From Chlorobiota bacterium (lineage in GTDB: Bacteria; Bacteroidota; Ignavibacteria; Ignavibacteriales; Melioribacteraceae), in the NCBI GenBank assembly GCA_013151245.1, contig JAADIR010000024.1, forward strand, positions 1 through 41,675: a stretch of 41,675 bases of DNA. Direction: 5' to 3'. The position numbers were made by a program, and so were the translations under genes. Below the pieces are notes generated by a model. The model did no database searches. It was not told where the DNA came from and saw only the letters and a list, made by a program, of their open reading frames with translations. Below are positions 31,376 to 31,922 of the stretch, one piece after another (position 1 is the stretch's first letter; the number at the start of each line of letters is the position of its first letter).

Positions 31376-31486
31376 TTATTTACAAAATAATGTAAACCCT
31401 ATCAATCTTTTTAGAACATCTTGCGTCGAGCCGATATAATAAACATCAGCTTTCTCGCTTTTCAGTATGTACGCTGAAAAACTCAT
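31376..31486 (-). pseudogene. Truncated second copy of the GIY-YIG nuclease gene
   Basis: From its ATG this copy is almost identical to the intact nuclease gene for about 85 nt (two differences, changing Glu22 to Gln). It then diverges after codon 28 and ends at a stop, giving 36 residues, MSFSAYILKSEKADVYYIGS onward. The AYI and YIG motifs and Arg27 are present, but His31, Asn32 and the catalytic Glu63 region are lost, so it cannot be an active nuclease. Like the intact gene, it starts 2 nt after a tRNA-like acceptor end (CTCCCGC). It is a recent partial duplicate. Confidence 0.85.
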
Positions 31487-31488
31487 GA

Positions 31489-31519
31489 GCGGGAGATCCC
31501 GATTCTTCGGGAAACCCGC
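31489..31519 (-). pseudogene. tRNA-Gly acceptor relic with inserted palindrome
   Basis: Read on the minus strand, this is GCGGG, then a TCCCGA/TCGGGA palindrome, then CTCCCGC and T, directly followed by CATGAG of the truncated nuclease copy. The outer parts match the two strands of the tRNA-Gly acceptor stem. The whole tRNA body is replaced by the palindrome at 31497-31512. It cannot function as a tRNA. Confidence 0.6.
31497..31512. repeat. TCCCG/CGGGA palindrome, copy 3, inside a tRNA relic
   Basis: TCCCGA and TCGGGA form a 6-bp stem around a 4-nt loop TTCT. It occupies the place of the tRNA body between the two acceptor strands of the relic. Confidence 0.7.
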
Positions 31520-31529
31520 TAAAAACTAG

Positions 31530-31607
31530 AGCGGGAGACGGGATTCGAACCCGCGACCAATCCCGCACGGCGGGATGACTCTTGCCGCTAATTTAGAGTT
31601 CTCCCGA
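31530..31607 (-). pseudogene. Degenerate tRNA-Gly copy overlapping the nuclease stop
   Basis: The 3' part, from the variable loop through T arm and acceptor to the discriminator, is identical to the intact tRNA-Gly (about 32 nt, including GCGGG-TTCGAAT-CCCGT). The 5' part is degraded: TCGGGAG for GCGGGAG, a shifted ACTC...GAGT D stem with a longer loop, then AGAGTCA as in the intact gene. The anticodon arm is gone, replaced by ATCCCGC/GCGGGAT around a 3-nt loop, so no decoding is possible. Its first 15 nt encode the last four residues and stop of the nuclease gene. Confidence 0.8.
31560..31576. repeat. TCCCG/CGGGA palindrome, copy 4, replacing an anticodon arm
   Basis: ATCCCGC and GCGGGAT form a perfect 7-bp stem around the loop ACG. 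It sits exactly where the anticodon arm should be in the degenerate tRNA-Gly copy. Confidence 0.75.
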
Positions 31608-31847
31608 TTTTATCTTATCGAGTTTCCTCTTTACTCCTTTCAGCGATTTTAGAAATCTCTCTCTTTTAACCGCTTCGCTTCGAGTTTCAAACTCTTCATG
31701 ATACTCCAAAACCCACGGTTGATATTTTTTCGTCCACCGGGCTTTCGGACTATTATGAACTTCCAATCTTTTTAGAACATCCTCCGTCGAGCCGATATAA
31801 TAAACATCAGCTTTCTCGCTTTTCAGTATGTACGCTGAAAAACTCAT
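31593..31847 (-). CDS. Small GIY-YIG nuclease-family protein, tRNA-linked
   Basis: The 84-residue protein is a stand-alone GIY-YIG domain, the fold of UvrC N-terminal and some homing nucleases. The motif is AYI (5-7) and YIG (17-19); other landmarks are Arg27, His31-Asn32 and the presumed catalytic Glu63 (KRERFLKSLKG). No second DNA-binding domain is present. Its ATG lies one base after the discriminator of tRNA-Gly, so no ribosome binding site exists outside the tRNA. Its last codons (Ser-Gly-Glu-Leu-stop) lie within a degenerate tRNA copy. Activity and target are unknown; a selfish or homing-type role is inferred from the context. Confidence 0.88.
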   Translation of the reverse strand: MSFSAYILKSEKADVYYIGSTEDVLKRLEVHNSPKARWTKKYQPWVLEYHEEFETRSEAVKRERFLKSLKGVKRKLDKIKSGEL

Positions 31848-31848
31848 G

Positions 31849-31922
31849 AGCGGGAGACGGGATTCGAACCCGCGACCAACAGCTTGGAAGGCTGTGACTC
31901 TAGCCAGCTGAGTTACTCCCGC
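31849..31922 (-). tRNA. tRNA-Gly (anticodon TCC)
   Basis: The cloverleaf is complete: acceptor GCGGGAG/CTCCCGC, D arm ACTC/GAGT, anticodon stem ACAGC/GCTGT with loop CTTCCAA (anticodon TCC), and T arm GCGGG-TTCGAAT-CCCGT. The discriminator is T, as in known tRNA-Gly. CCA is not encoded: the bases after the discriminator are C and then the ATG of the nuclease gene. It is the second tRNA of the cluster, 84 nt after tRNA-Tyr, and the parent of two degraded copies downstream. Confidence 0.97.

Follow-up and report, generated by a model that had tools for sequence, protein, structure and literature searches.

The window, by which we mean the whole stretch of 41,675 nucleotides of Chlorobiota bacterium DNA that was analysed, carries on its minus strand, in this order, a tRNA-Tyr gene, a tRNA-Gly(TCC) gene, a GIY-YIG open reading frame, two tRNA-Gly relics, a truncated nuclease copy and a tRNA-Thr gene. 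The tRNA-Tyr(GTA) gene (32006..32089, called by ARAGORN and scored by Rfam as tRNA-Sec) and the tRNA-Thr(GGT) gene (31195..31268, ARAGORN) are the conserved upstream and downstream neighbours, respectively, and their order is kept in relatives. The intact tRNA-Gly(TCC) gene between them (31848..31922; ARAGORN, Rfam RF00005 with 66.5 bits) is the host tRNA of the element described here, and its 3' end is directly abutted by the ATG of a gene for an 84-aa stand-alone GIY-YIG nuclease (31593..31847; Pfam PF01541, E 5e-16). Then follows relic 1 (about 31529..31588), a tRNA 3' part which aligns to positions 18-75 of the tRNA-Gly with a gap at 28-44, the anticodon arm having been swapped for the palindrome ATCCCGCacgGCGGGAT (31560..31576; ATCCCGC-cgt-GCGGGAT), for which an RNA hairpin is predicted. 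Relic 2 (about 31487..31519), read from the sequence and with a predicted fold, is an acceptor-end fragment with the palindrome TCCCGAAGAATCGGGA (TCCCGATTCTTCGGGA at 31497..31512), and it is followed by the second GIY-YIG copy, truncated to 28 codons (31403..31486; repeat D1, HMM match with E 1e-9). A dispersed palindrome, ATTCCCGC-tttc-GCGGGAAT, is found at 31326..31345 without assignment to a strand. In total, palindromes of the type TCCCG..CGGGA occur six times in the window, as compared to 0.44 expected by shuffling.

This one-strand order had been read from the letters in an earlier note and was confirmed by ARAGORN, the open reading frames and the repeats. The same note had the two nuclease copies share about 85 nt with two differences; the differences are correct, but the shared length is slightly greater, as repeat D1 comprises 94 nt at 98% identity. 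The tRNA 3' halves are, as had been stated, identical over 32 nt (repeat D2, 100% between relic 1 and the intact gene), and the view that the repeat unit consists of tRNA plus nuclease is supported. The palindromes of the two relics had escaped the earlier note. Beyond the tRNAs, an Rfam scan of the window gave weak sub-threshold matches only and no intron, and as the tRNA is also uninterrupted, a group I or group II intron with an endonuclease was rejected.

The window protein matches PF01541 with 59.1 bits against a cut-off of 22.6 and thus belongs to the GIY-YIG superfamily. Residues Y5, Y16, R26 and E62, i.e. the tyrosines of the GIY and YIG motifs and the active-site arginine and glutamate, are invariant in 42 sequences. 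According to an AlphaFold model (pLDDT 95), the protein of 80-84 aa is all catalytic core, and it is without the separate DNA-binding domain typical of homing endonucleases such as I-TevI. The closest solved structure by sequence is 1ywl (E 1e-5), and Foldseek returns 1zg2 (E 4e-4), then 1ywl and Slx1, with I-TevI being much weaker, so that by sequence as well as fold it is a minimal stand-alone domain of the UPF0213-like or Slx1 type. The nuclease is under purifying selection with its catalytic residues kept: omega ranges from 0.02 to 0.42 in pairs with a dS of 0.15-0.6, most values being at or below 0.2, and the tandem copies of one locus (L043) differ by 3 nonsynonymous and 13 synonymous changes. 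One gene with an apparent frameshift near its start (L007), the two frames of which had been joined in the first HMM seed, was left out of the alignment (A2) and of the structure prediction.

With respect to the rest of the same genome (G000), a search with PF01541 yielded 13 places, two of which are UvrC and a 576-aa protein and the others small genes or a fragment. Nine small places adjoin a same-strand tRNA or tmRNA gene (Leu, Pro, Ser, Asp, Gly, Asn, twice Met, and tmRNA), and the two remaining ones are adjacent on one contig between tRNA-Asp relics; all ten other members of the nuclease family in this genome reside at tRNA or tmRNA genes or at tRNA relics. Most of these genes are followed by a damaged version of their tRNA, which has palindromes in its D, anticodon or T arm. 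In 24 relatives, in which 80 stretches were examined and each genome has between 1 and 18 PF01541 matches including UvrC, a profile made from the proteins of the first genome splits strong matches, found at tRNA genes, from weaker ones found elsewhere.

The elements come in more than one layout. Either an intact tRNA is followed by the nuclease and a relic of the tRNA 3' part (L006, L043), or a relic of the 5' part is followed by the nuclease and the intact tRNA (L052 and L053 of genome G016, also L049), and further layouts also occur. Where elements are not truncated by the end of a contig, ARAGORN mostly calls an intact tRNA beside them, and as the GIY-YIG frame is the only one between tRNA and relic, a tRNA-integrating element with an integrase was rejected. 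Tandem amplification, as proposed in the earlier note, is common and reaches up to about eight units; L052 and L053 each hold three identical or near-identical units, of 317 and 323 nt, respectively. The longest array, in another genome (L289, G080), is made of about eight nuclease-relic units of about 366 nt. Genome G016 also has four tandem relic units of 124 nt beside a tRNA-Val gene, ending in a truncated nuclease (L174), and four of 114 nt beside a tRNA-Pro(TGG) gene without a nuclease (L186), each unit of both having a palindrome instead of the anticodon arm.

The window locus is one case of a widespread pattern. Among the loci analysed, 104 of the 117 full-length strong members are found at a tRNA or a relic, as against 3 of the 37 remaining matches, two of these three falling within the tRNA clade; of the 13 strong members without such a label, six are situated within or close to other genes and some at the end of a contig. 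Named genomes were scanned with a tRNA-Asp nuclease as single query, which biases the result towards tRNA-Asp, and yielded 60 loci in Melioribacteraceae, Cloacimonadota, Bacteroidales, Pedobacter, Flavobacterium and others; close relatives for which a tRNA or relic could be recognised are sited at tRNA-Asp, those of Cloacimonadota included. A sample of the phylum comprised 148 genomes, 90 of which gave a match at E<=1e-12. Thirty loci of this sample, picked by protein score alone, were examined, and 28 have a tRNA or relic on the same strand (24 of 26 among those new to the study, since L259, L263, L265 and L272 repeat genes already studied); a same-strand tRNA is within 700 nt at 27 of the 30, and none has an opposite-strand tRNA only. 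The 28th locus (L259) sits between tRNA-Asp relics, L261, where the contig ends, adjoins a 3' fragment of a tRNA, and L274 is a true exception, having a nuclease gene without a tRNA. The linkage to tRNA genes suspected in the earlier note is hence borne out by the genome itself, by its relatives, where the gene is positioned at tRNA genes and not at random, and by the phylum sample.

Some members and relatives of the family are found in other settings. The nuclease of L274 lies between the arms of an inverted repeat that measures about 19 bp (CCCCGCACATAACATTTAA / TTAAATGTTATGTGCGGGG). A supported subclade (L059, L075, L078, L081, L082) lies inside or beside tyrosine-integrase-like genes with no tRNA nearby and has inverted repeats of some 11 bp on its two sides (CCCGTGAGATA / TATCTCACGGG); with related inverted repeats, another nuclease of this integrase-associated subclade (L071) seems to split a gene similar to that of the 23S rRNA intervening-sequence (four-helix) protein. 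A sister GIY-YIG clade (L068, L083-L087, L111-L116 and others) is present in multiple copies in the same genomes, with three tandem copies in L085, yet not at tRNA genes, and its matches constitute an internal negative control. A search for a viral carrier confirmed no relative in viral contigs, and a phage collection gave six distant matches of 41-43% identity in unannotated Listeria and Staphylococcus records.

In a FastTree phylogeny of 148 proteins over 80 columns, many forks of which are weak, the tRNA-associated group is separated with a support of 99 from a group of 36 rows lying nearly all away from tRNA genes. The isoacceptor label changes 32 times on this tree as compared to 65-75 times in 200 shuffles (101 labelled rows, 21 labels), and the nuclease lineages follow the tRNA isoacceptor across genera and phyla, the tRNA-Asp lineage, for example, comprising Ignavibacteria and Cloacimonadota with 64-69% protein identity. 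Hopping between different tRNAs within a genome was rejected as the main route, as the copies of one genome belong to different isoacceptor clades. Because the lineages are isoacceptor-specific, spread appears to take place mainly between copies of the same tRNA gene in different genomes and not, as the earlier note had it, between tandem tRNA genes.

The tRNA-Gly site exists in both states. The tRNA order Tyr-Gly-Thr-Trp around rpmG is conserved in relatives, and 21 of these have a Gly-Thr spacer of 4-157 nt without a nuclease, in agreement with the conserved Tyr-Gly-Thr order stated in the earlier note and with the intact Gly-Thr spacer which it expected in strains lacking the gene. Together with two other genomes (G015, G059) that have a nuclease at this tRNA-Gly, there are three occupied loci. 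In two genomes the Gly-Thr spacer holds tRNA-Thr relics with palindromes and no nuclease (L164 of G022, L161 of G023). In the tree, the protein of the window forms a pair with that from the tRNA-Gly locus of G015 (support 98, 59% identity), and since this identity between families is close to that of the neighbouring RpmG (55%), vertical inheritance with many losses is possible at this site. One might also consider a domesticated host gene, i.e. a tRNA-linked nuclease that is inherited vertically and serves to maintain tRNA genes or to repair DNA, which would be compatible with the purifying selection and with the recurrence in 90 of the 148 phylum genomes. However, three occupied tRNA-Gly loci against 21 relatives without the gene, the variable number of matches per genome, the frequent truncations and the identical or near-identical tandem arrays of G016 render this reading very improbable. 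The patchy occupancy, the truncated copies, the nuclease-free relics and the empty sites rather give the nuclease the selfish look that had been ascribed to it at the outset.

The relics themselves carry a second regularity. An insert of 10-70 nt interrupts 122 of the 145 relic chains, and 100 have one with a perfect stem of at least 6; among 113 distinct inserts, 83 contain such a stem, as compared to 7% for segments of flanking DNA and 2.5% for inserts after shuffling. Unlike the cut at or near a tRNA end supposed in the earlier note, the altered places fall inside tRNA arms, and usually a GC-rich palindrome, in many cases TCCCG...CGGGA, has taken the place of one arm. Its place is a preferred one for each isoacceptor: 50/51-59/60, in the T arm, in Asp relics of Ignavibacteria and Cloacimonadota, 25-36 in Asn relics of Bacteroidota, 28-46 in Pro, 28-44 in Gly, 25/26-43/45 in Lys and 24 in Leu(CAG) relics. 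The inner stem letters vary between genomes while the pairing is kept, e.g. at the place of the relic 1 palindrome, where G015 and G059 have other sequences that are still paired. Over all relics, stem pairing amounts to 0.85 versus 0.61 when the 3' arms are re-dealt, with none of 2000 re-deals reaching the observed value (Asp 0.80 versus 0.69, Asn 0.70 versus 0.51). With the local tRNA being the reference of the search, which favours an own match, the best match of a relic is its own local tRNA in 67 of 104 cases, a tie in 30 and another tRNA in 7. Except for the replaced arm, many relics hardly differ from the tRNA, and for this reason the plain decay of a second tRNA, as which the degenerate copy had originally been seen, was rejected.

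Such palindromes are not confined to relics. The motif TCCCGA-N(0-12)-TCGGGA is present at 95 places in the genome of the window, as compared to 0 for the reversed control, including the loops of longer REP-like hairpins and apparent coding sequence (L123-L130, L135-L136), and the genome has three genes of the Y1_Tnp (REP-transposase) type. Recurrent insertion from a dispersed palindrome family could mimic paired but varying stems at preferred places. The nuclease genes might then be passive passengers near tRNAs that undergo ordinary tandem duplication, and the palindromes a genome-wide mobile repeat landing in dispensable hairpins, which is seen in tRNA copies because a functional tRNA tolerates none. 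We regard this as unlikely, for it accounts neither for the tRNA siting of the nuclease clade as opposed to its sister clade elsewhere nor for the isoacceptor lock, nor for a palindrome place that is preferred per isoacceptor across phyla.

The pairing could also be maintained at the level of RNA, with the nuclease acting on the tRNA as RNA and the relics functioning as RNA in an arrangement resembling a repeat RNA followed by a toxin. Relic hairpins that stay paired as their sequence varies, a predicted fold of the window relics that is more stable than shuffles (z -3.1) and purifying selection on the nuclease are in line with such a function, isoacceptor-specific lineages would fit tRNA-specific RNases, and the relic array of L174, with its terminator-like stretch and truncated nuclease, recalls the layout. 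Still, this scenario seems rather improbable, somewhat more so than passive passengers. A relic may comprise the 3' part, the 5' part or almost all of the tRNA, and no set of tRNA elements is constant among the relics; at many loci the nuclease has decayed or there are only relics; at any given tRNA, the majority of relatives have neither; and the fold is nearest to UPF0213 and to the DNA nuclease Slx1. A type III toxin-antitoxin system was rejected, the fold being GIY-YIG and not ToxN and the relic lying upstream or downstream depending on the locus.

We therefore consider it probable that the unit is a minimal homing-like selfish element of tRNA and tmRNA genes, consisting of a GIY-YIG gene and a partial copy of the host tRNA, with putative cleavage and with tRNA sequence serving as homology arms. 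In this proposal, the nuclease would break DNA at a tRNA arm or hairpin, and homologous recombination via the tRNA sequences flanking the nuclease gene would transfer a copy of the element to the corresponding tRNA gene in a different genome. The full tRNA would be restored on one side and a partial copy with a palindrome-replaced arm left on the other. The same breaks might drive tandem amplification, and the nuclease would later decay to leave relics and finally empty sites. As the protein comprises only a catalytic domain of the UPF0213/Slx1 type, it is supposed to recognise structure, i.e. a hairpin or cruciform, and the tRNA homology arms would determine the target. The palindrome might act as a signal by its structure alone, or as a means of disabling the surplus tRNA copy. 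If the tRNA itself is the target, the intact neighbouring tRNA would still hold it, which implies that self-cutting is limited or that the site includes flanking sequence. The cleavage of DNA and its position, the homing and the function of the palindrome are what we infer. The homing-like reading accounts for the patchy occupancy, the decay states, the isoacceptor lock, the intact host tRNA and the tandem arrays.

If it is true, the scattered small GIY-YIG genes of Bacteroidota, Ignavibacteria and Cloacimonadota form one tRNA-parasitic element family, and there is a way for a selfish nuclease to persist at an essential gene and leave it unharmed. The different isoacceptors, empty and occupied sites, tandem arrays and relics would moreover provide natural replicates for testing homing, tRNA gene amplification and the evolution of palindromes. 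No description of the tRNA-nuclease-relic arrangement was found in the open-access literature searched.

Among known systems, the minimal GIY-YIG proteins of the UPF0213 or prokaryotic Slx1 type (1ywl, 1zg2) are alike in being a single catalytic domain, and we know of no link of these solved relatives to tRNA genes. Integrative elements with tRNA attachment sites likewise have a partial tRNA copy at one end and keep the full tRNA; they differ from the element here, which has no integrase, measures about 300 nt, shows a replaced arm in its partial copy and may have the 5' or the 3' part as relic. SegB of phages T4 and T6 is a free-standing GIY-YIG homing endonuclease beside tRNA genes that cuts inside them with the preferred motif RAWTSGAAC and drives tandem amplification of segB plus tRNA (PMC13096335). 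By our reading, the complement of this motif, GTTCSAWTY, resembles the T-loop consensus. Common to both are a GIY-YIG gene beside tRNA genes and tandem units of nuclease plus tRNA, and the precedent shows an enzyme of the GIY-YIG type to be capable, at tRNA genes, of both cutting and bringing about its own amplification along with a tRNA. However, SegB is phage-encoded and more than a catalytic domain, and neither an isoacceptor preference nor a palindrome-bearing relic is described for it (PMC13096335), whereas the present element is chromosomal, about 80 aa in size and isoacceptor-locked. With REP/RAYT systems (PMC3733652, PMC3116915), finally, it shares short GC-rich dispersed palindromes, centred on a hairpin and linked to a single small enzyme, but the enzyme in question is here a GIY-YIG nuclease, and the palindromes considered reside in tRNA relics at preferred places. 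It is conceivable, though doubtful, that this amounts to a new class of mobile element, a GIY-YIG counterpart of REP/RAYT, in which a structure-specific nuclease that has about 80 aa and lacks a DNA-binding domain would be targeted by tRNA homology arms, its mobility would depend on a palindrome under structure-only constraint, and the essential tRNA would be kept intact in each host.
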